From Mesodorylaimus sp. YZB2_4 (Eukaryota; Nematoda; Enoplea; Dorylaimida; Dorylaimidae), in assembly GCA_030248295.1 (NCBI GenBank), contig JASANH010001018.1, positions 434,001 to 498,000 on the forward strand: a DNA stretch of 64,000 nt. The letters run 5' to 3'. Of the stretch, positions 37,569-63,590 are shown one piece after another. The position numbers were made by a program, and so were the translations under genes. Each line of letters opens with the position of its first letter. Position 1 is the stretch's first letter. The notes below the pieces were generated by a model. It did no database searches. It saw nothing but the letters and a program-made list of their open reading frames with translations, and was not told the origin of the DNA.

Positions 37569-37875
37569 TGTAGGATGCCGTGAGGCGAGGTCTCCCGTAT
37601 CGATAAGACAAACAAATGCGAGAGAGATTTATTGAGCAACCACACGAGGCAACACAACACAACACGACTGAGCAGACTAGGCACACGGAGCCGGCAAGGC
37701 ACCAGACAGGAAGTCAGCCAGACAAAGAGGCAAGGCGTGGCCGCAGAGCGACGAGAGACTAGGCGGACGAATGGGCAGGGCACGTATCACCAAAAAACGC
37801 AACATAGCAGGGCAGTGTCGATGACAGGCATAAAAGACCTAATGGCACGATATATCGAACACTATATCCCTCACA
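37569..37875 (-). repeat. 3' LTR of the gag-protease element
   Basis: Begins TGTAGGATGCCG and ends ATATCCCTCACA on the plus strand. It carries AATAAA on the minus strand (TTTATT at 37628). Its first base is the seventh base of gene B's TM1 intron. Confidence 0.85.
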
Positions 37876-39472
37876 TTGGCTATCTTGCCAAAACCCAATG
37901 GACTCCCACTGTCCATCCAATCTCACCGATCCATAATCGAACGCCGCCAATAAAGCTTCAGATAAGACTCCTGATACGTAATCACTGCCATGGATACCAA
38001 ACACCACCCGATGAGCCGAGCCCAGATAGTCCAGATCCGAATTAATCCAATCGACACACCACGCGACACTTTTACAAAAAGCTCACACACCCTGGCCGAG
38101 TACACAAAAATACTCAACACTATATCCCTCACTATACGAGGGTGCCCTTATGCGGCTGATAAGATACGAGATATAGTATGACGCACACGAATACACATGA
38201 TACGATAGGATATGATATAGTCAAGGCCCAAAGACTGAAAACTACGACTCGCCAGAATCCTATCAAAATATGACATATCCCACGTAAGGGCTAAGAATGC
38301 GTACACCCCCAATATTCCCAAAAAAAAGGTGAAAAACCTGGACATAACAACGCCTCGGTGGCCCAAAACATGAAAACGAAATGACCCTAAAAACAAACAT
38401 ACCGTAAACACCCTCTCTCTATATCTAACACGAGTCAATAAGTCGATATAAGCCCCCGAGGGACGTAAGAATTCCACATCCGATGTATTCCACTAATCTT
38501 GCATATCCGTAGGCGTTGGCGTCGGCGTCGAAGCATGCGAATCTAGCGATGCCTGGTCAAAATTAAAATCAGCAATCAGCGTACCCGAAAATTCTAACAG
38601 AATCATAACAGCTAGAGAATGGACATTCGTTGCTATAGCAGATCAACACTTTCATATCAATGACTGGGTCTTGCGCTGGCGTTGGAGACATACCACCGAG
38701 TGGTGCAACCTGATGATCGCTCGATCCTGGAACATTCTCAGCTAGCCGAATCAACTCCTGAAAACGTTGCAAAATCGCTGGCGCATCAGGCGAACTCACA
38801 ACCACCAATCACAATACATCGATCGATCCTAACTATAATGGCCAAAATAATTAGCAATCATGCGGATGCAATTCGTCCAAAAATAATCGATACACGCAAT
38901 TTCCTGACACACAGTGCAGCGAAAAGAATGCTTTCCCTCCATTTGCAAAAAAAACAGACGGGCAGGCAATAGCAAATATTGAATCCACAGGCTGAGCCTG
39001 GCCAGTGCACTCCATGCATCGCGAATACACGAAGGGATCAAAATCGCATGTGCAATGCATCCGACATGGCCATTGCCAGAGCATGCACCTTACTTCCATG
39101 GTCTTGTTATTCATTGGCGATTCGATCTGCACCAACCAGGCGGCGCCGAGCAAGCAAAGATGAGTCGAGAAATAGCAATAAAAAATGCAGGCACAATGGG
39201 CAGGTACAAATCAAATCGCAAACCGACTGACGATGAGCCCTGGAAACGTCTTCCACAGCATGCACGGACCATCCACCAAATCAATTAAAGCCTGGGGGTC
39301 CCTGACCGACTGTAAACAGGCATCCCACAATAGCAGAAATCTGAGCATTAGAAACCAAACTTGCGCAAAATCGGACCGTTTCAGGAAAAATCCAAGAGCA
39401 GGTAAAAGTCATAATCAAGGGCACATCCAGTAGTATACAGGCCCGGCCATTCCTATATCCTTGTACGATTTC
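37876..39472. other. Non-coding tail of the gag-protease element
   Basis: AT-rich sequence with stops in all frames and no RT/IN motif. At 38112-38130 a short piece (AACACTATATCCCTCA) repeats the LTR end, suggesting past rearrangement. Confidence 0.5.
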
Positions 39473-42400
39473 CTAGTCCAAGAGTGCATCCACCATCGAC
39501 GTCGATGGGGTCAATGAATCCACATTCGGGGTGAACAATTTCAAGTCCTTACACCCAGCTTTATGATCAGCTAATATGATCGCTTGCCCATATTCTTTCC
39601 CAGAACTCCATTTATCTGCACTCGAATTTCTCGACTTTCGTATCGACTTGGAATCCATCAAACCTGGAGGCATGATAACCGCTGGAAGCGGGGGACCCTT
39701 GTTCGAATAATAGGATGCGCAAACGACACAACCTGGCATGGCCATCTTCCCCGGTGCTCGTTCTGCAATCCCCATTTTCTTGACAAATTTGATTCGCTTC
39801 CTGCCCCGTTTCAGCGTCACCATTTTCACCTTCTGTTCCACCTCTTTCGATCCTCGCATCACCGGAGGGCCCATAGGACCGCAAACCACGGTCGTCAAAG
39901 CACTGCACCGTCTCGTTTGAGTCTCAGCTCCAATTCCCAACTGAGCGTTGCGATGAATTGTTTTGATAGGCGACTTTGTGACCACTGGTTGCTTTGCTTG
40001 CACTTCACCATCACGCGACTGCTCGCCCAGACTTATGTATTCCACGCCTTGCTCTAGAACCACAGTCGCACCACTTTCGATTTCCAAGTCACTCGAACCC
40101 AACACACTCGTATTTACTCGCTCTTCTTCATACTGTGGAGGTTGCCTGTCAGACAGAGCCGTCGAAGATATTACAGGCTGAGCCTGGGTACAAACGTTGT
40201 TATCCTTGTCACGCAGCGGAGCTATCTTGCCACTTTGACTTTGGGGGTCATCCTGAGCCAGCGGAGCTATCTTGCCATTCGATAAATCTGGCTGATCGTT
40301 GATCGACGGTCCACCCACAGTGACCACATGCTCGCTGGCAATATGCGAATTCGAAGCGATTCTTCCATTCCAATCAGGTGGCTCTCCCAAATCAAAATGA
40401 ATGCGACCTTGCGAACTTCGATCGCGATCGCCATTCAAAACTACTGGTTTTCGAACATGAAGCAGATTGAGAGACACTTCAATGGGCACTGGAGGTCGAG
40501 GCAGAATTCGAACCTGTTGTGCGGCAACTTTGAAATTGGCAGCTGGGGTACCTCGAACATTGTTGACATATGGCAATTCGACTCCTTTCAAATAACCAGC
40601 GCAGTAGGTGACCGACTGTTTGCTTTCGGATAATGTATGCTGATATCGATTATTGATGTCTTGACCAATCAACATAGTGAGCAGACCCCGAGGGTCGTGC
40701 AAAATAGCTACTTCATGCAATATCGTTTTCGTTCCAAACGTAAGGTATACCTGCCGAGTGCCCAAAACACGAGGTGCGTCCTTGTCAATCGATCGAAATG
40801 ACAATGAACATTGCTTGACCGAACCATCCCAACATGGGTGGATTTCCTGATACAACTTGTCCGAGATTACTGACGCCTGGGCACCCGAATCGATAACAGC
40901 TTGCACATATCGCCCATCGATGCCGATAATGATTTCTGGCGAGTCACGGCGCTGCAATGGTTGCAAGGCTGGCTGTTCCAGGGCAGCAGACAGTACAGCA
41001 TGACGCTGGTGAAACGCAAGGCATCGATACCATTCATCTTTCCCAAAATCCATTTCTGGCGTGGATTTCTGAGTCACTCCTTCCGATCGTTCGACCGCCT
41101 TCGATGGCAATTTGGGCCAAACTCGATGAGGCTGCACGACTACATGATTGACATTAACTTGATTCGATTGGGCTGACTGAAGAGGCGCTTGCTGCTGAGC
41201 AGCGTCAGATAGAACTGGCGAAACCGACTGACCTGGAGCTGCTTGCCATGGTTGAGCGCGGGCTTGACGTTGCGACTGTTGCACTTCAGCCATGTCTTCC
41301 ACAAACAAATATGGACATCGAAAATGACCATGGCCTGGATTCCGACTGCATAACTGACATGGAGGACGTCGAGGGCAATGCGCAGCCACATGACCCCATT
41401 CATAGCATTCTTTGCATTGCATTTGGTCAACGAATCTTGGCACGGGCACCTGCACTACAGCGTCATACGTGTGCCCAGTTTCTGGTGAACGATAGGGGCG
41501 ATCTCCCAAACCAGTTGGTGGTGGACGAGTTGTTGGTTGCGAAGCTCCAGCGGTCATTGATGCAGCCTGTGGACCGAGTCCAGAAAGTGGGGTCATCAGA
41601 CTAGGCAAATGTGTAGGCGACTCTTCAAAATTGCTTGATAGCGGAAAATACGCAGGCGCAGCAGCAGCTTTTGACGCAATTTGATCGAGATACTGTTTCG
41701 GTTCAGGCGTAGGATACGATGGTGATGAGGCTGATTGCGCTTCTGGCTGTTGTAATCGAGTTTGCGGTTGATAATACGAAGCTGGTGGGCGCTGCTGATA
41801 TCGACTGTAAGGCGCCGGAGGCACGGAAATCGGGGTACCTGCTCGAGCGCCAAAATATTTCGGATTATTCGGGGGAGCGGGCGCGGCATACGCATTAGCA
41901 TCGTGACCTTGATCCATATCCGTGACTTCTACTGCTGCGGCCGTGGCAACCGATTGCGATTCGTTCGAAGCCGACTGAGTCGGGTTACGCAGCTGCCACT
42001 TCGCTGCCCGCAACTTGATTTCCTCGAACGACGTAGACTGCGACCCATCGATATGATGTTCTTGAATAATACGGGTCAACTCACCTGGCAGATGCCTTCG
42101 AAAGGCGTCAATCAACTGCCACCGCAACTGATCAGTTGTACATGCCGGATAGGCCCGTTTGGCCGCGTGTTCCAATCGATTTCCAAATTCGAGATACGAC
42201 TCACCCTGTGCTGGTTTCAATTCTTGAAACTGCGTGATCAAGAACGACTCGTCCCTCAACTGAAATTGAGCAGCCATATCCCTCGTCAACTTCGGCCAAG
42301 CCACCTGCGGGTTGGCTGCCTGATACTGACACAACCACTGGGCCGCCTGGCCCGTCACATTTATTGGCAACAATCGCAACAGATCTTCCTCCGCAGAACA

Positions 42401-44160
42401 ACCCCACACCCCCATTTTCATAACGTATTCACGCAACCACTCGTCCAGCGGAGGCGAGTTGACCGAGCCAGCGTACTTGACAATTCCGATATCGATCGAT
42501 TTTCCTTTGTCCAACAATAATTGCAATCGCGACCGAGCCAATTCCGAGTGGGATCGAGACTTCCGCAGTTGGCCCGGAGGCGGAGCCCCGCTATTTTCGC
42601 GATCTCTCCGTTTACGCACATCGGACGCCACACTGACCACTGACTCGCTATCCGAATGATCCGTGGCATCTGAAAGAGGATTATTAACCGACTGAGTCGG
42701 GCGAGACGTGCCTTTCTTTTTCGTCTCCACCACCGACGCCAAGTTCATAATCGATTTATGGAGCGTCGCCATCTGCGCCTGCGTCGCATCCTGCACTGCT
42801 TTGACGATTGCTTCCACCTGCGATGTCGTCCCGTCCTGTCCCGTTGTCGACTTTGCCACATGAGACGGCGGCTGCGATGACGACTGATTGATAGCGGTTT
42901 CATTGTACACCTGCTGCCAGGCACGGTCATAATCTTCCAAAATTTCGTCAGTCGCTACCTGTTGCTCAGCAGGCAGAGCCTGGAAAGTCACCTGCCGGGT
43001 CGGGACCGAGGGGAAACAGTACTTACCCGTCACCGAATCTTTAGCCAATGGTTGTCGCGTCTGCGGATGCAAATATCGAATATGCACGGGCAACGGAACA
43101 TACATCGTTACCAAATCGTCTCGTCCAGGTCGAGGTTCGTGATTTTCTTGAATCCAAAATTCCATCAGCCCGCTGGACGGGCCGAACGAAGCCGACAACT
43201 CGATTTGAGCAATGGCCGCCGCCGCTAATCGCACAGCATGACGCAACGAAACCAGATCACTCGTCTCATCGATGTCACGCCGAGCGCGGGGAGCCAAGGC
43301 CGTCAACATACTTTGCCAAAATTCGGGATCCGTATTGTTCAATAATTCGTGCCAGCCAACCCATCGATCGATGCTCGTCGGAACCCTGCCAGAGGGGGAA
43401 TCCACGTCAATCACTGGAATATCGGGCCGCCCACTCGTAGCACCTGACCGAGTGTTGTTCGTGGAGCCTCCCCCGCTCGCCACCGTTCGATCGCTCCGCA
43501 TACTGTACTGGCCAACAACGTCCACATTATTTGCCGAGCTAGAAGAATCTTGGCCAGAGGCCGGTAACCCCGGGACGGCAACCCTCTCCAAAAGCTCAGC
43601 CTGGCGGGTAACTAACTTACCAACCGTCTGGTCCAACTGTTGAACTCGTTCACGATACAACCGATCCTCTTCCTTCTGCCTGGCCCGTTCCGCTACCAAC
43701 TCGTCCCCCCCCCCCGAAGCCGTTCCTCTTCCTCATTCTGCCGGGCTTGACGAATGCGCAACTGCTCGTTTTCCCAATGAATACGCTCTTCATCCCCCGC
43801 ATATCGAACACGTCGCTCCGTCAACTGCACATCTTCGATTTCCAATTGCTGAGCCCGTCGATTGAGCTCCTGCTCACGACGATTACTCTGCTCGATCATT
43901 TCCCTTTCCCGTTGCTGCAATTCCTCAAAACGCAATCGCCACTGCTCGGCCATATCGATAGCGGGCGGGTTCTGCGGAGGAGGCTGAACCTCGGGAGCAT
44001 TTCCATTGTCTCCATTGTTTCCTAATCCGAGATTTTCCAAATTCGGTCCGTGATCGATATTTCCTTGAACGTGATCGCCGCCAATCGGATCGTTGTCGAT
44101 GCCGATGATCGGCGGGACGTCGCCGTTCTGATTATTGAGAATGCCTCCTTGATCGGCCAT
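39473..44160 (-). CDS. Gag-protease polyprotein of non-autonomous LTR element
   Basis: Starts at the ATG at 44160 (MADQGG..). A charged coiled-coil region (QQREREMIEQSNRREQEL..) is followed by a Retrotrans_gag-like capsid region (WLCQYQAANPQVAWPKL, then FRRHLPGELTRI), a CCHC zinc knuckle (CKECYEWGHVAAHC) with a second Cys/His cluster, and an aspartic protease (VIDSGAQASVISDKLY; catalytic DSG). About 450 further residues contain no RT or integrase. The frame is continuous except at a C11 run (43705-43715), where the frames on either side do not match; this may be a mutation, a sequencing error or a programmed shift. About 1,560 residues in all. Gag would form particles; RT and integrase would have to come from another element. 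Confidence 0.8.
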
Positions 44161-44304
44161 GCCAGACACCAAGGTACGAAAAATTCGAAAAAACGAAAAA
44201 TTTTCCACCAAAATTCAAAATTCAACGAAATTAAGCCAAAATACGAAACCAATAATCGATTCCCCCACGCGGACCTCCGTTTATCGATCCGGCATGGGAA
44301 CCAA

Positions 44305-44613
44305 TGTAGGATGCCGTAAGGCGAGGTCTCCCGTATCGATAAGACAAACCAATGCGAGAGAGAGATTTATTGAGCAACCACACGAGGCAACACAACACAA
44401 CACGACTGAGCAGACTAGGCACACCGAGCCGGCAAGGCACCAGACAGGAAGTCAGCCAGACAAAGAGGCAAGGCGTGGCCGCAGAGCGACGAGAGACTAG
44501 GCGGACGAATGGGCAAGGCACGTATCACCAAAAAACGCAACATAGCAGGGCAGTGTCGATGACAGGCATAAAAGACCTAATGGCACGATATATCGAACAC
44601 TATATCCCTCACA
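44305..44613 (-). repeat. 5' LTR of the gag-protease element
   Basis: Same ends as the LTR at 37569 and a GAGAGAGA stretch longer by two bases. It abuts the truncated TM7 exon of gene B at 44614. Confidence 0.85.
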
Positions 44614-46914: not shown

Positions 46915-49646
46915 CTGACTGTTGTGCATGCGAGGCGGCGCATTCAAGAGGATACAGATTCTGGATAGGGCGACGAATCGATCGTCCAGACGAGAATCGG
47001 ATGTTGGCGCTGCGGACTTGCCCATCCGTACCGCGTTTCAAATCGACGATTTTGCCCATGGGCCAGTGCATTCAGGGAGCGGGCGCTTTCACAAGAACGA
47101 TTTCCCCTATTTGGGGAGTATGAGGGGACTTGATTCGGGGCTGGCGGTGCGTCCAACGAGACCTTTCCATAAGGGACGTAAGGTACTGGCGTCGCCAATG
47201 TTGCCAGAATGTTTCAAGATAGCCTTGGCTCTTCCGCCAAAGGGTGACGAGGTCAGCGTTACGAAACTTGCGATCCGTTGTGAAGGAGTCGTTGATTGCG
47301 GACGACGTTCGTGAGGAGAGGAAAAGCTGGGGAGTTAGGCACTCTCCATCTTCAATATCGGATCCAACGTAGACAAGTGGGCGAGAGTTCAGGACCGCTC
47401 CGATTTCACAGATAAGCGTGCTAAGCTGCGACACGGTCAGAGTAGAATGATCGATGGATTTACGGAGGCATTGCTTGACCATACCAATTAGACGTTCGTA
47501 GAAACCTCCTTCCCAGGGAGTGGATTCCGTGATGAAATGCCATACGATTTCGTGATCGAGGCAGTAAGAGGAGATGAATTGTTTGGTTTGTTTAAATTGT
47601 TTCGCGTTGTCGGAAATGATTGAGGTGGGTTTACCACGTCGAGAGATGAAGCGAGAAAGGCATAAGAGAAATTCGGATGAGGTAAGATTATTGACCAATT
47701 CGAGGTGAATTGCACGCGTAGTGAGGCAAGTGAAGATGCAGATCCAGTTCTTTTCCAAACCCAATTTCGTTTTGACCAAGAGTGGCCCAAGATGGTCGAG
47801 GCCAGTATGAGAGAAAGGGAGCGTTTTTGTCACTCGCGAAGCGGGGAGGGGAGGGAATAGAGGGGCCGTATACGGGCCGCCATCGACGCGTTTGCATACA
47901 AGACAATGACGAAGGACTGAGAAGATGACTGAACGCCCAGCAGGTATCCAGAATCTTTGCCGAATAGCGGATAGCGTATGCGCGACCCCAGCGTGTTTCA
48001 GCTGAACGTGAGTGTCCATAATAAGGAGACGCGAGAATCCGCTTCGTTTTGGGAGCAATATAGGAATTTTTGCTGACGTTTGAAGATCCGATTTTTCCAA
48101 GCGTGTCGTACATCGGATGATGCCCTCCGCATCGAGAAAGGTGCGTAGGCCGGGAACAGACGAAGGACCATCTGGGTAGTGACTGCTCTGAATGTGGCGA
48201 ATCAGATAATGTTGAGTGTTAGCGATTTCATCCCCAGTTAGTTCGGTAGTCGGCGTAGATTTGATTTTACGGCAATGATTGAGAAAGCGTAAAACGTATG
48301 ATACAACGCGAAGAAGGCGTTGAAGGGTCGTGAATCGTTAAAGAATATCGGTTTCCTTCTGAGGATTTACGCTGATGAGAGTCTGTGTGTCTATAGACGA
48401 TATAGGAGCTGAAATTTCAGGAGAAGTAGGCCATTTGTCGGGCGATTTGGAGAGGAAGTCGGGTCCGTTCCACCATGAGTTAAGCGAACTGTAGTTTTCT
48501 GGAGTGGTACCGCGAGAGGCTATATCGGCTGGATTCGATTTTCCCGGGACGAAGCGATAGGATACGTTTTCGATGGAGCGGATTTTGTTTACGCGATTCT
48601 TAATGAAGATTGTATCTGGTCGGGGATTATGGAGCCAATGGAAGACGCATTGTGAATCGGTCCAGAGGTAGCAGGTTTCGACTTTGAGTTGGGTGGGCTG
48701 TAATGACTGGCGTGTCAAGGCGATGGCGCGACTTCCGATGTCTGCTGCGATAAGCTCAAGTCGAGGGATCGATTGCTTCTGTTTAGCTGGGGCGACTCGC
48801 GATTTGGCGGAGACGATGCGTGTGACGATCTCTTCGTTCGGACATTCGAATCGTAAATAGACGCAACAGCCGAAGGCGGCTTGAGAGGCGTCTGAGAAAC
48901 AATGGACTTCACAGGATGGGGGAGACGACTTGATTCTCCAATGAATCGAGGCCAGGAGACATTGCCGAGCGAGGTTAGCTGTTGAAGTAGAATGGCCCAC
49001 TTTTGAGAGTCGGTTTCAGAAAGAGCTTCGTCCCATTTGCGACTGGTGTTCCAGAGGGCTTGAAGGAAAATTTTTGCTTGAATCGTGATAGGTGAGACGT
49101 AACCGAGGGGGTCGAAAACACTGGCGACTGATCGTAGGACAGATCGTCGGTTGGGAGCCGCTGGACTTCGACTGAGTTTAGGCTCTTTGATGCTGAGGAG
49201 GTCGGTTTCAGTATCCCAGACAAGACCAAGTACTTTTACTTGCTTGGAAGTGACAAGATCTGGCTCAGGGAGGGAATCTCGGAGATCCGGGCAGGAGCCA
49301 GACCATTCACGAAGGTTCATCGATGCGTCTTGGAAAATTTTCTTTCCATCTGAGTAGAACTGGTGAGCTTGGTCGGGGGTCTCGACCCCAGTGATGACAT
49401 TGTCGACGTAAATGTCATTTAGAATTTTCTTAGCGGTTGGGCTTTCGTATTTCTTGAGATGGTGCGCGACAGTAGCGGCAAGAAGAAAGGGCCAAGTGAT
49501 GATGCCGAAGGGAACACGAGCGAATCGAAACGTTTGGACGTTATCTTCCGTAGTATACTAAGAGGCATCCTTCAGCCAGAGAAACCGGGTTACGTCTCTG
49601 TCTCCCTCTTGCAATCCGATTTGTAAGAAAGCCTTTTCGATGTCTG
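46915..49646 (-). pseudogene. BEL pol remnant: RT (C-part), RNase H, integrase
   Basis: Reading leftward: RT continues from KAFLQIGLQEGDRDVTRFLW through FRFARVPFGIITWPF to NDIYVDNVITG, where YVDN replaces the usual YVDD. RNase H follows (HCFSDASQAAFGCCVY, LWTDSQCVFHWL). Integrase has an HHCC finger (HVQLKHAG..CLVCKR) and DDE residues (GLDHLGPLL, SDNAKQF, PWEGGFYERLIG). Lesions: TAG at 49558-49560, a frameshift near 48930, TAA at 48338-48340 and TGA at 47072-47074, after which the usual C-terminal sequence (GKIVDLKRGTDGQ) continues. The element cannot make an intact polyprotein. Confidence 0.8.
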
Positions 49647-49845
49647 TGTCATGGTTAAGTTTGTATCTCCCGCGTGGATATCATGTAGTGTAGTGTGCGT
49701 TATTGTAAAGCTTGCTCGCCAGGGCTACGGCCAGAGCAGGCGACCGGTGTAGAGTACAGAGGATCGTAATATAATTCTCGTCTAGTGCGGTTGGTCTGGA
49801 GATTACTCTTCTCCGCACGCGGTCACGTCGGATAGCAACGTGACA
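49609..49845 (+). repeat. Left direct repeat: BEL flank (38 bp) plus 5' LTR (199 bp)
   Basis: 49647-49845 is the LTR (TGTCATGGTTAAG..AACGTGACA). The 38 bases before it (49609-49646) are BEL RT coding sequence. All 237 bases recur at 52369-52605, including the BEL-derived part. Confidence 0.8.
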
Positions 49846-50292
49846 TTTCTGGCGAGCTTGGCAGGAGGCGAGGAGTCGGTGGAGAAGAGTGGCGGATTGG
49901 TATATATACCTGTAAGTCGGGTTGATTCGGTCTTGGGTCGTAGTACGGGAGCTTGTCCTTGGATTGGGACAGCGATATTTGGGCAGCCGCTTCGTTCCGC
50001 TTGTGCTTCCTGGATTGGTTGCACTGGAAACGGACTTAGAGAGTTTCGTGCTGTTTGTGCTTCCTGGATTGGTTGCGCTGGAGACGCACGTTGGGAATTT
50101 CGTTTGAGTGCCTCGTGTGCTCTGGAGACGAATTCCACGTTCGTTTGCGTTACCTGGATTGGTTCGCTGGAGACGAAGCTTACTCTCACTAGCGGAATCG
50201 TTGAGTACCTGGATCGGTTCTCTGAAGCGAATTCGATCAGTAGCTCGAAAAGTTGCCGCGCGGACTCACGCGCAGAGACTGTGGGGGTGAGC

Positions 50293-51936
50293 ATGGCTGC
50301 GAAGTTTAGTATCACGTATGCGGAATTGCGTGAAAAGTTACCTCCTTGGGTGAAGAAAGAGGTGTTGAAGGCCTATTGCGATGCCAACAACGTGAAGGTC
50401 TCGGCCACATCAACGAAACAGGATATGGTAGAGGAACTTGGCAAGGCGATTTCTGCCGGATGGGACCAAGGTGCTGTGCATGGAGGTAGCAGCGGGGAAA
50501 GTACTTGGGAAATGTCCATGATCGATTTCGGTCCGTACATGAATGAAAGTACGAGTAAAAAACCGCCGAAAGGAGACGGAGAGTATACGGGAGCGGACGA
50601 TGCGTCGAGCAAGGCGACGCCTATGACGAATCCGCAACGGCCACGCCTGGACCAAGGCGATGGTGGCACGGGTATCGCTCAGATGATGATGCAGCAACAG
50701 GCCATGTTCTTCGAGTTCCTGCAGAAACAACAGCAGAGGCAGGATGAGGACAGGCGCCGCGAAGCTGAGGAGCGGAAACGCCAGGAAGAAAGGCAATTGG
50801 AGCAGCATAAGATAATGCTGGAACAGATGCAGGCTTTGACTGTCTTGATTCGGTCACCGCCACAGGCTGGTAGTACGCAGCCCAGTCAAACGTCTGTAGT
50901 GTCCCCGTCTGTGAATCTGCCAGGTCTAAAGATCGCAGTGTTTTCGGGCGACGTTGAAAAGATAGACCCATTCGAGTGGTTGCAGACTTTCCGTACATAT
51001 AGTACGTTAGGACGGTGGTCCGTCGTTCAAGTCATGGAGGGTATCAAAGTGTATCTGACGGGCGAGGCTTTAGCCAAGTGGAACGAGTTGACTGATACGG
51101 ATAAGAATTCTTGGGAACGTGCAACGGCTGTATGGCTGGAAAAGTTCCTCGGAGAGAAAAGGTCGATTTTCAGAGTGCAGTTAGCTGCCCTGAAGCAGGA
51201 AAATCGTTCAGTCGCCTGGTATACACAAGAATTCTTGCGACTGGCAAAGTTGGCCTCATTTAAGGCCACGAACCAGACGGTTCGGGATAATGACTGGCCT
51301 ATATGCGAAATGTATGTCGCAGGATTGCGCAACACGATTCAGAAAGAGGTTCGCAGAGATAACCCGGATAGGTTATCAGTGGCGAAGGAGTTTCAGGCTG
51401 GTGATATGGTGATGTATAAGCGAATGCATACACCGGCAGGCTTATCATCGAAGCTGTTAGGCTCCTGGACTGGACCCTATCGTGTCACGCAAGTGATATC
51501 GGCTCACAACTTGATTATCCGTCCGCAAGGAGGATTAGTTGGCGAAGAGAAGCGTGTTCACGTAGAACAGGTGAAGCGGTATGTGCCAGAGGTGGATAGG
51601 CCACGCAAACCAAGTCTGCTGAAGGTCGGTGATGCAGTGTGGGCCAAAATGAAGTACCACCCATATTTGCCAGCACGTATAGTGGATGAAACGGAATTCC
51701 CGGATAAGAGGCCTATAAAACCAAATTGGGTTCGTGTACACTTCTTCGGCGAGAATAAGTACGGACTAGTCGAGCGCGATAACATCTTCGACTACAGGCA
51801 GTATAAGGAGGTGTTAGCCTCCAAGGCGGCAGGTTTGCCTCGTGCGATGCGAGACGCGGAGAGGTACTTGGAGGAGGAGAAGGACACGCGCAGTCGTGTG
51901 GCTTTGGTGAAGGAGAGACGGAAGTGGGTGCAATAG
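50293..51936 (+). CDS. Gag fused to integrase GPY/F module and PWWP domain
   Basis: 547 aa from the ATG at 50293; the frame is open upstream to the LTR but has no better ATG there. Domains in order: a SAP-like N-terminus (about residues 10-50: VLKAYCDANNVKVSATSTKQ then DMVEEL); a Gln/Glu/Arg coiled coil (about 130-190); a Retrotrans_gag-like region (about 207-366: VEKIDPFEWLQTFRTYSTLG, WLEKFLGEKRS); an abrupt switch at about residue 368 to an integrase C-terminal GPY/F module (GDMVMYKR..SKLLGSWTGPYRVTQV, VHVEQVKRYVPE); and a PWWP domain (about 440-510: VGDAVWAKMKYHPYLPARIV..VHFFGENKYGLVE). AKMK-x-x-P-x-x-PARIVDE and FFG closely resemble the HDGF/LEDGF class, which reads H3K36-methylated nucleosomes. 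Protease, RT, RNase H and integrase core are deleted, yet the frame is intact. Expected to be a nuclear or chromatin-directed Gag. Confidence 0.8.
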   Translation: MAAKFSITYAELREKLPPWVKKEVLKAYCDANNVKVSATSTKQDMVEELGKAISAGWDQGAVHGGSSGESTWEMSMIDFGPYMNESTSKKPPKGDGEYTGADDASSKATPMTNPQRPRLDQGDGGTGIAQMMMQQQAMFFEFLQKQQQRQDEDRRREAEERKRQEERQLEQHKIMLEQMQALTVLIRSPPQAGSTQPSQTSVVSPSVNLPGLKIAVFSGDVEKIDPFEWLQTFRTYSTLGRWSVVQVMEGIKVYLTGEALAKWNELTDTDKNSWERATAVWLEKFLGEKRSIFRVQLAALKQENRSVAWYTQEFLRLAKLASFKATNQTVRDNDWPICEMYVAGLRNTIQKEVRRDNPDRLSVAKEFQAGDMVMYKRMHTPAGLSSKLLGSWTGPYRVTQVISAHNLIIRPQGGLVGEEKRVHVEQVKRYVPEVDRPRKPSLLKVGDAVWAKMKYHPYLPARIVDETEFPDKRPIKPNWVRVHFFGENKYGLVERDNIFDYRQYKEVLASKAAGLPRAMRDAERYLEEEKDTRSRVALVKERRKWVQ

Positions 51937-52074
51937 GAATCGGAGACGTCGGTCAAACTCAATCAACAGCGTACAATACGGTCGTACGATGTCAATGGAG
52001 ATGGGCGACTTACGACGCCAATGATCATGATTTTTGCGTTTCGATATTTTGTGTTTCGTGTAGGAGTTCGTGTA

Positions 52075-52368
52075 ACCTGAGGGGGAGGTGAATGTCACGG
52101 TTTAAAGGCTCCTGCATACTAGGCGCGTGGACGCGTGCGGGCGTGCGAGCGCGCGTGCGTGAACGAAAATTCAGGTTATACTTCACGCGTGAAAGCTAGC
52201 GTGGGCGCGTGCGTGAGAGAATGGGGGGAGGGGGTCGCGTGAACACGTGACGCCGCCTTGCGTGAGCCTCCGTAGCCCGATCAGTCTGCTAGGGGGCATG
52301 GTTTGGCAGTCTCACTCGTGAAATCGAAATGCCATATTTTGTGTTTACAGCAGATCGATATTTTGAGT
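52075..52368 (+). other. Polypurine tract, second LTR-like start and CpG-rich tract
   Basis: GAGGGGGAGGTGAA (52079-52092) looks like a polypurine tract. It is followed at 52093 by TGTCACGGTTTAAAG, which resembles the LTR start TGTCATGGTTAAG and mirrors the LTR end CGTGACA exactly. The following 275 bases are rich in alternating GCGTGCGTG runs and have no match in the left LTR. Confidence 0.45.
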
Positions 52369-52605
52369 TTGCAATCCGATTTGTAAGAAAGCCTTTTCGA
52401 TGTCTGTGTCATGGTTAAGTTTGTATCTCCCGCGTGGATATCATGTAGTGTAGTGTGCGTTATTGTAAAGCTTGCTCGCCAGGGCTACGGCCAGAGCAGG
52501 CGACCGGTGTAGAGTACAGAGGACCGTAATATAATTCTCGTCTAGTGCGGTTGGTCTCGAGATTACTCTTCTCCACACGCGGTCACGTCGGATAGCAACG
52601 TGACA
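52369..52605 (+). repeat. Right direct repeat: BEL-derived 38 bp plus 3' LTR
   Basis: The LTR copy is 52407-52605, followed by the TCTG duplication and BEL RT sequence. The preceding 38 bases (52369-52406) duplicate BEL RT sequence that belongs only to the left flank. Confidence 0.8.
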
Positions 52606-54194
52606 TCTGCTGATATTTCGATGGGGTGCAGTTGGAAGCGAATGAGGATATGGGCTACATTATCGAGAATGACCGGGCCACGGTATAGGCATTCGTTAAG
52701 ACTCAGATCTGACTTGTTTGCTTTAGCAGAACCATCATATACAATGCGAAGTTTAGTGGAGCGATCAGGTGTTATTACGGCATGGTGAGGAATGTAGTGC
52801 AGCTTGTTTGGTGAGGGATCCTCTGGGACCTTCTCGATGATACCGCTTTGAAGCTGGTAGTTGATGGTTCTTTGATACTGATCAAAGACTTCAGGTGAGG
52901 TGGCATGTCGCTTTACGAGAGAATTCAAACGGCCAAGAGCGAGTTTGTAGTTGGATGGAATTTGATAATCGGGGTATATCCATGGCCACTTTACGTAGTA
53001 TCGTTTATCTTTGAAGCGCAGATCATTCTCAAACGTGCGAAGTACGGATTCATCATTGACATCAGATGAATGGTCTCGTATTCCAAGTTGTTCAAGATCC
53101 CAAAATGCCGATGGGTCAACCATGTCCATGGCGTGCGAATCGAAAGAATTCGGACTAGGCGAATCGACTTGAGAGAGCGTGTTCGTAAAGAGAAGCGTCG
53201 TATGTGAGATGATGTTTGTCGATTCATTCGTAGCAGATGGAGTTGGTGATTCTCCTTTCCCAGTAAGGATCCACCCCAGATGAGAAGGAATGAGAGATAG
53301 CGGAGAGCTTCCCGGCACTGAGACACTGAAGTCAGCGAAGATTTGATCCCAGTATTCTGCGCCAATTAGGATGTCGACAATACGGGACTCCGAAGCACAC
53401 GGAATAGTATCGGCTAGATCGTAGGACTGCAGGAATGTCTCAGCTTCTGGAGATAGGGTTGCCATCGGGCGAACCGTCGGGTCGGTTATCTTCGGAATCA
53501 CATAGGCATAGGCTGTGATGCTGAGATCGAAGCCATCGCGAGTGCGAATGGAGAAAGCTACCAAGCGGGAGCTGAAGGAATTCATGATGCCACCGAAAGA
53601 AGAAACGCGAATCTGCTCTATTCGAATAGCAGGAGCACCAATTCGCCTAGCGAATTCTGAAGAAACGTAGGATCGTTGACTTGCAGAATCAAGTACAGCG
53701 TGGCCATCGAAGAACGGCTTTGATGGGCCAGAACGAGCGGTGATCTTGGCGGACAGCATGAAGGAGGAGCGAAGAGGACTTGGAGCTATGCAGGATGTTG
53801 TTTGCCCAGATGAGGGGCCGGTCGTAGAGTGAGATGTAGCAGAGGAGGAGGAAGAACCGCAGAGCGAACGATGATGCCTTCCATGGCAAGATGGGCAGTT
53901 CTTAGTACTTTTGCAATCACCAATGCGATGACTGCTAGACAGACAGTTGAAGCAGAGTTTCTTTTCTGAACATTGCTTCTTGCGATCGTTGGGCGTAGGA
54001 TACTTCGGGCATTCGCTGGGCCAGTGACTACCATTGCAGAGCTGGCACATCGGCGGTTTCGTTTGAGAGGATCGAGAGCCGCGGTGGCTATTCGTAGCGG
54101 GGTTACTTGAAGCGAGGTTCATGGTTGTGAAGACGCGACCATGACTCTGATGGCTAGCCGAGTTCCGAGTAGCCACCGCCGCCTTGAAATCCAT
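52606..54194 (-). pseudogene. BEL gag (C-part)-protease-RT (N-part)
   Basis: An open frame from the ATG at 54194, which lies inside the 31-bp LTR remnant. Only about 50 residues precede two zinc-knuckle-like clusters (CQLCNGSHWPSECP; CFNCLSSSHRIGDCKSTKNC), so the Gag N-terminus and capsid core are gone. The aspartic protease follows (GHAVLDSASQRSYVSSEFAR, with DSA), then the RT N-terminus (KLRIVYDGSAKA, SLNECLYRGP). The frame runs into the nested LTR at 52606 and stops at 52563-52565. The junction MDFKA fuses LTR sequence in frame with Gag. Confidence 0.75.
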
Positions 54195-54211
54195 CGCGCT
54201 CCGTCGCGACA
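54181..54211 (-). repeat. 31-bp remnant of the BEL 5' LTR
   Basis: Identical to 46625-46655 (CCATCGCGCTCCGTCGCGACA end) and directly followed by the GTACT duplication. Sequence left of 54181 is Gag coding, not LTR. Confidence 0.8.
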
Positions 54212-54372
54212 GTACTCTGCACGGAGCCGGCAGCTGAGAGCGTCACCCGTCAGGGTGATGTTTCAGCCATGTATCAGGTTGGAAGACTTGGTACTGAGTG
54301 TTTGGCGTAGGGCAAAAGCTCCATCGGTCACTTCCCTCAGTAATACGGACCCAGTCGTATTACAACTGCTCT
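54212..54372 (+). repeat. Right half of family B repeat plus TSD
   Basis: GTACT, then CTCTGCACGGAGCCGGCAGC and the rest of family B to ACGGACCCAGTCGTATTA, completing the copy whose left half is at 46331. Confidence 0.8.
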
Positions 54373-56629: not shown

Positions 56630-57608
56630 ATGAAAGCGATCTTTGTCCTCGCTGCCCTCGTCTATGTGGCCCATGCTGCGGTAAGTGCAACTTGCTGTTT
56701 TTGCTCAGGTTAATGTTGGAACGATCATGACCGCTCCATCCCTAACTACTTTCTATCAAGCGATGGCTAAGCTGGTGTGCTTTCAGCCGCAAGCTCAAAA
56801 TCAACACGCAGGTAACCGACAGAGGCCAGGAGGCCCGCCTCCAGGTGCCGCCGTAGATCCAGCGGCCAGTTCCTCTTCCACATCAGGCCCATCAACCACC
56901 GATTCTTTGGTTATTTCCATCCTCAAAGCCGAATCGTCGAACGCCTCGGCCAACACTTCAGCTCCAGCGCAAGAACAGCCATCAGCACAGGCTCCTAATC
57001 CAAGCAACCCTAGCAACCCTAGCAACCCAAGCAACCCTAGCCACCCAAGCAACCCTAGCAACCCTAGCAATCCTAGCAACCCAAGCAGCCCTAGCAACCC
57101 AAGCAGCCCTGGCAACCCAAGCAGCCCTAGCAACCCTAGCAACCCTAGCAACCCTAGCAGCCCTAGCAACCCTAGCAACCCTAGCAACCCTAGCAACCCT
57201 AGCAACCCAAGCAACCCAAGCAACCCAAGCAACCCAAGCAGCCGTGGCAACCCAAGCAACCCTAGCAACCCAAGCAGCCCTGGCAACCCAAGCAGCCCTA
57301 GCAACCCTAGCAACCCTAGCAACCCTAGCAACCCAAGCAACCCAAGCAACCCAAGCAGCCGTGGCAACCCAAGCAGCCCTAGCAACCCAAGCAATCCCAG
57401 CGACCCAAGCAACCCTAGCAATCCTGCTAATCCAAGCAACCCGAACTCTGCTCCATCAGGTGAGCATAGGCCAGGCGCAGCTGCTGGTCAGCCACGCTCA
57501 TCCAAAGAATCGAAAGGAAAGAAGTCCAGCAAGGAACTCTCGACGTCCACAAGCAGCAGCACAAGCACCACCACTGCGCAAGGCAACAACATCGTGAAGT
57601 CGGGTTAG
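56630..57608 (+). CDS. Secreted Pro-Ser-Asn repeat protein
   Basis: Two exons: 56630-56680 (MKAIFVLAALVYVAHAA, a textbook signal peptide ending at GCG/GTAAGT) and 56787-57608 (acceptor TTTCAG/CCG, phase 0). The product is about 290 aa: a Gln/Asn/Pro-rich N-terminus, a Ser/Thr linker, about 145 residues of PSN/PSS/GNPS triplets (from 57000 to about 57440), and a Lys/Ser-rich tail. Asn is always followed by Pro, so N-glycosylation is blocked; Ser may be O-glycosylated. It has no cysteines in the mature region as I read it, and is certainly disordered. TATA box and polyA signal are both clear. Function unknown; a secreted matrix, adhesive or protective coat protein is possible. Confidence 0.8.
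57000..57436 (+). repeat. 9-bp (3-aa) tandem repeats, AGCAACCCT/AGCAACCCA
   Basis: About 48 units of the 9-mer in the coding exon. Blocks with CCT or CCA proline codons, and GGC or CGT interruptions, are themselves duplicated (the CGTGGCAACCCAAGC block at 57242 and 57360). This indicates expansion by slippage and unequal exchange. Confidence 0.9.
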
Positions 57609-58203: not shown

Positions 58204-61200
58204 TCAAAAAAGCGCCGCCATTTTCGCCTTTATCAGAGAGCGCAACTTGCGAGCAAGCTGGATGGCCTGAAAAATCTAGTTTGAATTAGCCAAAGTTCAA
58301 ATCCTTTGAGAATTGTGGTTGCCTTTTCATTAGAGGAAATGTGATAGATGCAGGTGAAGATGCCAGTGACGATGTTGAGACCAAAGACGACACTGTAGTA
58401 GGATATCCGCTGATAATACACAGCATTGGTGGCCATAAACCATGCTGTAAACTGCACTAGAAATGCCAAGCCTAATCCGGCTCGCGAGACCCTAAAAGAA
58501 GCACGCTACAGACACACCTCTGTGACGAGCAGGCTAAGTTGTGCATACTTGCACGAATTTGCAATGTCGGACTTTAAACTGGAGGAGATGTGTCCAGTTG
58601 CCTCCAGCAGTATTATAGTTGACCACCCTATCAGAACAATGGGAACGAAACTGCCCAGGAATGCATTGTCTTCGATGTTTAGCCAGCAGCTGCAACATAA
58701 AGCTTTAATCTCGAGATGGAATCCTTCAATGACCAGTGACTTACGAATATTCTGAAATCAGCTGGCCATAGGAAATTACTGATGTCAGGGCAGTGATCAC
58801 TGCTGGTGCACCTGAAAACGGAGATGATGTATTCACAGGGGAAAAACTGTGGTAAGTCTTACCCCAGCCAATGACGATGGTAGGAACCACGCCTAGACAC
58901 GAGTTGTTGCCCATGACTACATGAGTCAAAACGGTGTAAATGTGAAACGCCTCGAAACATTGGAATGTATGCGTGACTGTGAAGAAATACTGCAAACTGA
59001 TCGCGGCGATTTTACAGGTGGTCTGAAACAGCATCAGTGTATTCTTTTTGTATTGGGGATGAAACGCAGGGCTGAAGAATGACACGTGTATTGATGCAAC
59101 CAAGCTTGGCAGGCGTAGGAGGGAGGTTGCCGACCGAAGTCGCCGGGACAAAAACTTTGACTGGAGCAGGCAAGTCTTACGATTATACCTACGGCTGAAA
59201 GAGGGGTTGACGTCAGGCATGAGGGTTACACTGATATTCGTTGCGGGCTGCAGAAGCATCATTCTTTTCGCTCTGCCCCCCCCCCTCAGATAGGGAAACA
59301 CCTCTTTACGCATTGCTTGCAGAATTCAGTCTTCATACTGAAGCTCACATTGATTAACCCTCACTCCCTCAACTGAACTTACTTCGCTGTACTTGTCGTC
59401 GTCTCGCTTGGCAAATATCAATACAAACACGTGGGCGCAAAACAGACTCACGTCTTCGTTCAACTGGATTATTTGCAGGTAGTTTTTAGACCTAGGCAGA
59501 AAGCATGTCTTCTGTGAAAATCCTTGACTCTCCAGATACCAACTCTTCAACTTGCCTTAAGCAAACGCATGCCACCATGGAGCATCCGAGCGCTGCAAGA
59601 ACCCATACGCATCCTATGTTCATAATGTAACGCACAATCATCTCCTCCATGCTGGTCATCGGGCTCTGAAATAGTCACCTCTAGCTACAATACCTGCCCT
59701 TCCTTAGCCACTGCCATTCTTACACATTGATCCGTATCGCAGGGGACGATTTCATAAAAAGTGTCCCCAGCTAGGCTGTCCCTGTTCAGGTAGAAGCACG
59801 TTCGATTGCGGATTCTGGACGGCGGGGTGCAGCTGGAGCATGTCCTGAATGGTCCCCACTCGGATAGTCGACAATGCTCTACAATGAACGATGAATGCAC
59901 GACTGTTAAAAGTTAGACTCATGTCTTCGTACCTGGTGTCTGCTTTTCATGCTGCCCCGAAGTTTGTGTGGTCGCTTTGAAATTCGCGATCCCAGGTTTA
60001 GGATTCGCATTGGAAGTACTGGGAGGCCGAGTTGAGGGATGGTAGTCAAAATGGGATGAGCCCGTCGGGGTGGTGAATTGATATGGTCGGCTAGTGTGAG
60101 GGAGCTGAGAGGAAGGAGCGCTGTTTGTCGCTGGCTCTGATAATTGATCGTCGCTCGGTGGCAACATGGGCAATGGCTCGTTACGAGCAGACAATTGTAT
60201 ATTCGTCGTTCGGTCTTGGTTTTTCAGTGTTGAAGAAGCTGGCGGCAATACTGGAGGGTTGGCTGATATGTATCGAATGGTTGTTCTAAGGGCGGTTTCA
60301 AGGTGGCCATTCGTGAAACCAGGGGACTTTTTTTCAGACAGGTGCTCAACAGGGGATAAGATAGAGGGTAGTGGGATGATAGTGGGGCCTGCCTTCGTGG
60401 AATGTGTTGAAGTCAGTGGCTGATGGTGGTTTTGATGATAGTGGGGCCTGCCTTCGTGGAATGTGTTGAAGTCAGTGGCTGAAACTGGCTAGGTTCTTCG
60501 AGAATGCTTTCTCGCAGAAGTGATTCCGGGATCAAAGGTAAAGGAACCAGAACTGACTCTAACGTTGATAATGGGCTAACTGCGCTGTTTTGGACCACTG
60601 GCGCTTGAGGTTTAGTCAACCGTAACATCGTTTGTGTGGGCCAGGGAGAAGAACTGCCCAGGAGGGACGTTGGCGTGGTGTCAATTCCAGCAAAGGAGGT
60701 TTCAGTGATTTGGTGAACGCTAAGTACCCAAGATTTGCTAGCTGGGGTCACCGTATTATCTTTCTCGAAAATTTGAGTGGTAAGTGCCACCTGCTGGGTA
60801 TCAGGTTCCGTGACTGTGATTAGCGGCAGCGCGATCATATCTGATGCGAGGGGATAAGTGTCGGTTGCATCGGTTTGCGTGCTCAGAATTGACTCTGGTA
60901 TCCAAGTCTCGGGAATTACTTTTGTGACTGCATGATTAGGTGCAGCTGTCTCTAAACTGACCCGCGCAATAGCAGCTGTCTGCGTACTCTGGACTGCAAC
61001 AGGGCCCACAAATGGTTCACTGACACCCGCAGGCACAGACGTTTTTAGTTCTGGAGTGAGTGGGATGTGCCGCTGAAAGGTGATTTCAGGCTTATCATCT
61101 GATGGCTGCCTATCTGTGCTGTCGATCTCATCTAATGATTGGGGATAAATTGTCACGTGATCATATCTTACAAGCATTGTTGATGATGATTGTGATATGG

Positions 61201-63360
61201 GGATCCTTGGATCGTACGGGTCACTAAGGAGGGAAGGGGCTGTTGTCTTTGCTGAGACAATCGTGGACGCAATATTGGAGATAGGCTGCCGACTTCTGAC
61301 ATCAGATACTGGTGCCAATTTTGTTAGGCCAGTTGATTCGGACACTCTCGTTGGTACTGCATTTGTTATCTGCTTAACAGCAAGTGGTGTGATTGGAAGG
61401 GCATCGCTGATGGGGTCGGCACGAAGACGGGCAGGAGTCGGGTCAAGGAAGGCTGCAGTTGGGACTACTGGACGATCCGACAGCCCATGACTTGATATCA
61501 AAGGCAAAGTGGCTGATTTCAACGAACTAATCGGTGTAATCTCAGACCGTCGTGTCGTACTCCTAGCACTAGAAGCATAGTTACTCGGGGATGACGAATC
61601 TTGGCTTGGTCTTTGGCTGTACGATTCTGATGACGTTCGAGTACTTTGAGGTACCTCAGAAGTTTTTGCTGTTGTTTGCAGACTGACTCCAGAGGTCTCT
61701 TCAGTCGCTTCATAGTGCATAGTCTTGCCTATATCTTGCATTTGTCCATCAGACCACATCGTTGATTCAGTGCCCTCAGTGGTCCTGGGCAGTAAAGAGA
61801 CAGGAACTAGTGGAACTACGACGTCCGCTCTAGTCGTTCCTTCATGTTCGTCTGCTGAAGCAGTGCCCGCAGTTGTCTGCTCAGGGATCCAAATTAAACT
61901 CTCTCCATCGCTTGGTGTATTTACGGCCATACTTTCCTGGACTTGTTTCCTGCTGGCGCTCGAAGGTTCTATCGAGCTCGTCAGAGAAGGAGTTGGCAGG
62001 GATTCCTCTTCAATGAAGACTGTCAAGCGTGTCGAGGTAGTTGTGTTCCCCACTTTAGGCGTATTGCTGGAAACAGTTCGTATTTGGCTGCTGGAATTCT
62101 CGGATGCTGCGGATGTTGAGAGAATAAGAGATGCTGCTTGCGTGGTAAGAGTCTTCGAGGTTGCCTTATAAGTCAATTCATTAGAAAGTGCACTGGTGGT
62201 TAATGGCTGTTTTCTGCCGGCCGTTGGTTTAGTTGACCTAGTTCCAGTTCTCTGTTTCCTTGTTGAAAATGTGGAGCCAATTGACGATGTATGTAAAATT
62301 GCTGTCGGAGTTGAAGCAGCGACTAGCCTATCGGTCGTTGTGTGCACCATTTCTATGAAAGTAGTCTGCTCCAAATGACTAAATGGGAGTTTAGTTGATT
62401 TGGTTGCTGCTATGGCTTTCCTTGTTGATATCGTTTGGGCTGATGAAAGAACGGTCTGCATGACCTCAATTTTATCTGAGCTCATTTGAACTGGCGATGT
62501 TGCTTCCTCACTAAAGTATCTGCTTGTTGTCTTTTGCGTTGTTTCACTCGTAGCGGCCGACTCTGCTTGAATGGATTTTGTCACTGTCCTAAATTCTGTT
62601 TTTGAAACTGTGGCAGCCTCTGGGGTTTTCGATGGATTCGTGGTAGCCTCCGCCAATGCTGATGGTGTGGTTTCTGTGCTAACTTCGAGTGGCTCGATTG
62701 TCCTCGTGTGCAATGTCGCACTAGGTCGCGACAGCTCTAATTGATTTGTTGGTGGTTTCGTTGTCTTGGTTACTGCTCTGACTCTCTTTGTTGATGATGT
62801 GGAGGTCTCAGATAGGGTGGATGGGAGAACATTTTCTTTCGTAGTCCTCGCTGATACTGAAGAGGTTGTATCTGTGGTGATGGGAAAAAAGGTCATTGTG
62901 TCACTGCTAGTTGATGGCTCCATTTGAGTTATTGGAGTTTCATTTGGTGTGGTCACTCCAAGCCTGGTTTTCGTGGGAGCGTATGATGCGGTCGTTGTAG
63001 CATTGATCAATGCTTTCTCTGCAGCCGTTTTTGATTGACTTGTAGTTACGGTGAGCGGAGTAGCACTACTGTGCGTAAGGATGCGCTCTTGGGACGTCTG
63101 GACTGACCTATGGTGCACCGTCGAGGTGCTCGTGTCTGTCGAAGTAAGAAGAGACGTTTCAGGCATGTTGACCAGAGAATTCATATTAGTTGTGTTTGCG
63201 TTGGAAGGTTGTCTGGTCTGTGTTAATGTCGAGGGAGATGTTGGCGTTCTTGAAATTAAAGACGTTGGCGTAGTTCCAGGTGTGAAAGAAGTGGATATTG
63301 AGTAAACGGACGTCCCCTGCCTGCACCTAGACCTTGTCGGAGAATGGATGGATGTCGAAG
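58204..63360 (-). CDS. Receptor gene C (partial): mucin-TSP1-7TM, family-B2-like GPCR
   Basis: Exons in phase, reading leftward: 63360-59933 (about 1,140-aa mucin, acceptor TCTTTTACAG, phase 1 as in gene B), 59902-59724 (degenerate TSP1: SEWGPFRTCSSCTPPSRIRN), 59665-59556 (TM1), 59491-59383 (TM2), 59022-58863 (TM3: CKIAAISLQYFFTVTHTF), 58811-58745 (TM4: GWG/APAVITALTS), 58689-58549 (CWLN loop, TM5), 58491-58323 (TM6-7: GIFTCIYHISSNEK) and 58266-58204 (tail, AIQLARKLRSLIKAKMAALF-stop). No GAIN/GPS. GC donors follow TM1 (AAG/GCAAGT) and TM7 (AAG/GCAACC; intron only 56 nt). The TSP1 repeat has lost the CS-x-TCG core. Two copies of a 49-bp sequence at 60375-60482 shift the mucin frame unless 59 bases are removed. 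Upstream exons (lectin domains?) lie beyond the window or were lost. Confidence 0.75.
59110..59227 (-). repeat. Family A repeat inside the TM2-TM3 intron of gene C
   Basis: On the minus strand: GTCAACCCCTCTTTCAGCCG, GTAAGACTTGCCTGCTCCAG and GACTTCGGTCGGC, the family A order. It lies between exons 59022 and 59383, so it does not touch coding sequence. Confidence 0.6.
60375..60482. repeat. 49-bp direct repeat with 59-bp period in the gene C mucin exon
   Basis: GATGATAGTGGGGCCTGCCT.. at 60375 and again at 60434, each 49 bases and identical, with a 10-base filler (TGGTGGTTTT). The period is not a multiple of three, so the upstream mucin frame stops at 60413-60415. Confidence 0.9.
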
Positions 63361-63431
63361 CTGTAAAAGACTGCGCTGAGTATAGATGTTTTAGTGAAAG
63401 CCAGAGTCGGCAGCACGACCACCGTGCATGA

Positions 63432-63590
63432 TGGGCCATGGCGAGTGAGGGTAAATTGTTAATCTTCTCTGGGTGGGAAACGCCAACCATGGCTTCTTCA
63501 GCCGCAGTTACGTATAGTCGATGGACTTGCCTTGCCCAAGTAGGAGGCTTTGTCCTGCCGGCTCTGGTCGGCAACAAACTATCCTACTAC
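63432..63590 (+). repeat. Family A repeat upstream of the gene C mucin exon
   Basis: CCATGGCGAGTGAGGG, CTTCAGCCGCAGTTACG, GACTTGCC and CTCTGGTCGGCAAC match family A. The open frame that continues leftward from here into the mucin exon starts in this repeat, so I do not treat it as a true N-terminus. Confidence 0.55.

Follow-up and report, generated by a model that had tools for sequence, protein, structure and literature searches.

The window analysed here, a stretch of 64,000 nucleotides from the nematode Mesodorylaimus sp. YZB2_4, contains a frame in which a retroelement Gag is joined to the end of an integrase and to a PWWP domain, raising the question of where such a fusion comes from and what a PWWP domain does behind an integrase. 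The initial annotation had proposed that the parental Gypsy element carried the PWWP fused straight onto its integrase and that the derivative in the window kept this reader on Gag. Overall, this interpretation is partly supported.

Domains of the fusion frame

The 547-aa frame (50293..51936, + strand) runs uninterrupted from its ATG, with open reading from 49786. Pfam recognised a Retrotrans_gag (capsid) domain at residues 253-322 (51049..51258, +; E 2.4e-7) and a PWWP domain at residues 446-525 (51628..51867, +; E 3.1e-12). Between them lies the integrase GPY/F module (about residues 366-433; 51388..51591, +), a small beta-barrel in the prediction; taken alone, this GPY/F-like stretch gave a weak match to SH3_Tf2-1 (E 0.013), which is below the cut-off of that profile. 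The solved structures closest to the PWWP by sequence are the PWWP domains of HDGFL3, HDGF, HDGFL2 and LEDGF. By profile match as well as by fold match the tail is a PWWP domain of the HDGF/LEDGF class, and the union of Gag, GPY/F and PWWP in one frame is confirmed.

Full-length relatives

A search of the genome (G000; 145,146,385 bases in 1067 contigs) with the 547-aa protein yielded at least 90 matches, a lower bound as 79 of 373 candidates were scored. In the relatives, kilobases of sequence separate the Gag part (to residue 365) from the tail (from about residue 365), both being on one strand; in L031 (contig C419) a single frame of 1873 aa contains the two. Scanned as four pieces, this frame matched Retrotrans_gag, zf-CCHC, Asp_protease_2, RVT_1, RT_RNaseH, Integrase_H2C2, rve and PWWP, and it carries the signatures YIDD, HHCC, D-D-35-E, LDSG and CCHC. 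Its LTRs are identical across 199 bp, have the ends TGTCACGG...GTGACA and are flanked by a 4-bp target duplication (AGTG). Judged by domain order, signatures, LTR ends and duplication, L031 is a Ty3/Gypsy-type LTR retrotransposon. The LTR pairs of the A-lineage copies examined are 95.6 to 100% identical, and flanking 4-bp duplications were exact in five of eight copies and inexact in L032, L038 and L041. L031 has moved in the recent past.

In the frames of lineages B (L051, L052) and C (L053), Integrase_H2C2, rve and PWWP likewise stand together in a single frame. Seven lineages were counted, namely A (with A1, A1b and A2), B, C (C1 and C2), D, E, F and G, where for D-G the PWWP stretch alone was read and the link to the integrase was taken from the match tables; the window copy belongs to sublineage A1. 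The proposed parent is thus found as full-length Gag-Pol-PWWP elements in several lineages, and the opposite outcome, full-length relatives that all lack the tail, did not occur.

Distribution of PWWP-tailed integrases

A genome search with the Pfam PWWP profile gave at least 146 matches (150 of 173 candidates scored), which were paired with the integrase-tail matches of three queries after exclusion of duplicates and short pieces. A PWWP match was counted as lying directly behind an integrase if, on the same strand, an integrase or GPY/F match ended no more than 700 bases upstream of it. This holds for 115 of the 146 listed matches and for all 35 whose frame is 1000 aa or longer; for 17 the frame reaches at least 1600 aa. 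When the upstream match was required to start at least 200, 300 or 450 bases before the PWWP, 112, 78 and 73 matches remained (35, 30 and 30 of the 35 in long frames), the drop at 300 bases arising mainly because the query for the A copies starts only at GPY/F. Shifting the PWWP places by 5 or 20 kb in either direction gave zero in each of the four controls, and no PWWP match lay behind an integrase on the opposite strand. At least five of the 31 PWWP matches without an integrase neighbour represent fragments of such elements (C531, C78, C21, C397, C696).

For 56 integrase-tail matches, some of them in frames of about 1600-2000 aa, no PWWP match was found behind the integrase. Most of these appear to belong to other, tailless Gypsy lineages, while some are PWWP lineages with a broken or unscored tail, e.g. 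C432, which is identical to B over the integrase. Since PWWP-less Gypsy integrases thrive in this genome, success does not depend on the tail.

Membership in the chromoviruses was considered and rejected, as Pfam found a PWWP in 13 of 13 element tails or tail pieces scanned and none of the 70 genome matches of the chromodomain profile (longest frame 859 aa) lies behind the integrases found here. As a separate observation, the integrases of D are ~70% identical to those of C1 and the PWWPs only ~35%, the D PWWP being closer to that of C2 (55%); the tail may either be fast-evolving or have been swapped as a module.

Selection on the PWWP and its aromatic cage

Selection was estimated from Nei-Gojobori counts, for which the PWWP was measurable in five of eight pairs, three A1-A2 pairs being saturated. 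Between A1 and A1b (C419, C25) the PWWP shows 18 synonymous and 4 nonsynonymous changes (dN/dS 0.04). The other pairs gave 0.02 (C334 vs C982), 0.00 (C25 vs C982; 2 changes in total), 0.13 (C419 vs C79; 3 changes in total) and 0.09 for two B copies, whose dS of 1.78 is near saturation. The values for the integrase core were 0.13, 0.07 and 0.38 in the measurable pairs, those for GPY/F 0.09-0.22 and those for the stretch behind the PWWP 0.15-0.41. Evidently, the PWWP is under purifying selection and, in A1 vs A1b, as constrained as the integrase core, even after the loss of the cage tryptophan described in the following.

According to PMC3663649, the cage of LEDGF consists of M15, Y18, W21 and F44. 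Specificity is lost in the mutants M15A and Y18A, and binding altogether in W21A and F44A, possibly because the domain unfolds. The alignment places M, H, L and F at these positions in the window PWWP, i.e. His and Leu where LEDGF has Y18 and W21, and a LEDGF-type H3K36me reader cage is absent from the window copy and from A1. At the W21 position, Leu is found in 22 of 22 A1 and A1b copies read, the window included, Trp in five of six A2 copies (Arg in the sixth) and in those copies of B, C1, C2, D, E and G that were read, and Ala in both F copies read. Because the copies of the other lineages carry Trp, this residue is most likely ancestral and was lost in A1 and F. C2 and D (one copy each) have the aromatic residues F, W and F at cage positions 18, 21 and 44, together with V at position 15; C1 has Leu at position 44. 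The derivative has thus kept a PWWP on its Gag as proposed, but that this PWWP is still a reader is doubtful.

Putative function of the tail

The PWWP takes the position of the chromodomain of chromoviruses and has the fold of the LEDGF tether. By analogy to both, the chromodomain acting in cis and LEDGF in trans for lentiviruses, it would be an integrase-borne chromatin tether which keeps the integrase-cDNA complex on nucleosomes; the PWWP-tailed integrase of the full-length relatives suggests that the elements themselves supply the guide to their place of insertion. In the lineages with a cage, best in D and C2, the domain would read H3K36-methylated chromatin. In A1, including the window copy, tethering via DNA or nucleosome contacts or via an altered ligand appears more likely because A1 no longer has the cage Trp. 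Reading of H3K36me is plausible in the former lineages and doubtful in A1. As a whole, we consider it probable that the window copy is an A1 deletion derivative of a PWWP-tailed Gypsy element whose PWWP is an integrase-borne tether, with H3K36me reading where the cage is kept. Counting against this are the loss of the cage Trp in A1 and F, the thriving PWWP-less Gypsy elements and the position of the window copy within another retroelement. Ten frames scanned in L033, L038, L039, L041, L043, L044 and L049 include retroelement pieces as well as one GPCR-like, one exonuclease-like and one matchless frame. At L033:6816-7820 (-) a frame matches Srx, a chemoreceptor family of Pfam (E 2.6e-7), which points weakly to a nematode as host.

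A more far-reaching version, which we put forward tentatively and at slightly less than even chances, holds that lineages A-G are a radiation of Gypsy elements with a cis-acting LEDGF counterpart that directs insertion into gene bodies methylated at H3K36. Cage loss in A1 and F, combined with the strong conservation of the A1 domain, would then mark a switch from methyl-lysine to another chromatin ligand, so that a single genome would harbour related elements with different targets.

It is rather unlikely, although worth weighing, that the tail helps the integrase without any reading of histone marks, by DNA or nucleosome binding, multimerisation or contact to a host protein. A1 and F do without the cage Trp while the A1 PWWP stays constrained, and PMC3663649 describes much of LEDGF nucleosome binding as driven by DNA contacts; as far as copies were read, the Trp is nevertheless kept in A2, B, C, D, E and G, with the exception of the one A2 copy carrying Arg.

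Origin of the window copy

The fusion frame lies between two LTRs. The 5' LTR (49609..49845, +) is truncated on its outer side and keeps 237 bp, which differ from the 3' LTR by 3 mismatches (98.7% identity). It is followed by TGGCGAGCTTGG (49850..49861, +), which we take to be the likely primer binding site and which also stands directly behind the 5' LTR in L031, L032 and L034. A polypurine tract, GAGGGGGAGGTGAA (52079..52092, +), precedes the 3' LTR (TGTCACG...CGTGACA; 52093..52605, +). The LTRs of the relatives measure about 199-204 bp, and the 3' LTR of the window copy is long because a dispersed repeat of roughly 265 bp (about 52102-52366) sits inside it, for which 42 matches are found genome-wide among those listed, the window's own counted. 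The 5' LTR copy starts within about 2 bases of the end of this repeat, and the leader before the ATG contains two tandem 54-bp units that are 81% alike (49991-50098).

Compared with L031, about 3.86 kb are missing from the window copy. At the deletion junction (51380..51388, +) the parental Gag is in frame with the integrase end, and imperfect microhomology is present, at which template switching or recombination would have created the fusion. A 201-base junction query gave at least 40 matches in the genome (40 of 47 candidates scored), and among the matches listed solely the window's own spans the junction. The window element derives by deletion from a Ty3/Gypsy-type LTR retrotransposon and is non-autonomous and private. 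Over its whole length its Gag scores best with L039 (C532; 96.6% DNA identity), in which the 54-base gap that L031 and others show against the window Gag is absent. Over Gag bases 608-1088, L038 is 99.2% identical, and in the tail seven A1 copies reach 97-99% identity; the window copy may be a recombinant.

The uninterrupted 547-aa frame, the in-frame junction, the 98.7% LTR identity and the retained primer site and purine tract would fit a functional Gag-PWWP protein, perhaps co-opted or parasitic. We regard this as improbable, given the truncated 5' LTR and the lack of a second junction copy among the matches listed; moreover, few stops are expected by chance at such an age, and a junction is in frame by chance in one of three cases. 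The one-off capture of a host PWWP exon by a Gag remnant in the window copy alone, in the absence of any integrase-PWWP element, agrees with a Gag-PWWP joint seen in this copy only (among the matches listed) and is refuted by the many full-length relatives, in several lineages, with integrase, GPY/F and PWWP in a single frame.

The element is inserted (+) into a BEL/Pao element (-), outside any recognised gene. One half of the latter lies at 52607..54242 (-), the other, with Peptidase_A17, integrase domains (Integrase_H2C2) and DUF5641, at 47072..49608 (-). By eye, ~36 coding bases of the split BEL/Pao element (47072-54242, -) appear to be lost at the 5' junction, which is also the truncated side of the inserted LTR.

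Elsewhere in the window, a second LTR-flanked element (37569-44613, -; 307-309-bp repeats, 98% identical) contains a 1419-aa frame (39473-43732) whose family matches are confined to Gag and aspartic protease. With no RT frame between its repeats among the listed frames, this element, too, seems to be non-autonomous and to carry gag. Furthermore, there are a 307-aa frame consisting mostly of NPS-type tandem repeats (56685-57608, +) and two very long Ser/Thr-rich, mucin-like frames of 1151 aa (33745-37200, +) and 1056 aa (60413-63583, -).

Comparison with known systems

With the chromoviruses (PMC3605345), the elements share the Ty3/Gypsy domain order and a Royal-family chromatin-type domain behind the integrase GPY/F; they differ in that the tail is a chromodomain there and a PWWP here, where 0 of 70 chromodomain matches follow one of the integrases found. 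In LEDGF/p75 (PSIP1), the lentiviral tether, a PWWP of the HDGF/LEDGF class is likewise linked to an integrase, but it sits on an integrase-binding host protein, whereas here it is within the element's own frame and, in A1, without the cage Trp. LTR retrotransposons treated by de Mendoza in 2019 and 2018 reportedly acquired by capture a methyl-CpG-binding domain or cytosine methyltransferases; they resemble the present elements in carrying a host-type epigenetic module and differ in that their domains are other than PWWP. Neither 'PWWP' nor 'chromodomain' occurs in the main text of de Mendoza 2018. Our literature search, which combined PWWP with LTR, Gypsy, Ty3, chromovirus and endogenous retrovirus topics, returned no PWWP-tailed LTR element in the titles and beginnings of abstracts it covered, and an earlier description may exist in repeat libraries or in further papers. 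As far as these sources extend, chromoviruses and the captures of methyl-CpG-binding domains and methyltransferases are the precedents for captured chromatin modules.

As several lineages, recent intact copies, PWWP-less Gypsy controls and natural cage-loss lineages are present in one genome, the role of the reader is testable by insertion mapping. Chromodomains are a known case of a covalently attached reader that chooses the integration site, and LEDGF, in trans, one of integration guided by a PWWP. An integrase-fused PWWP would unite both, with retroelements having reached the LEDGF solution independently.
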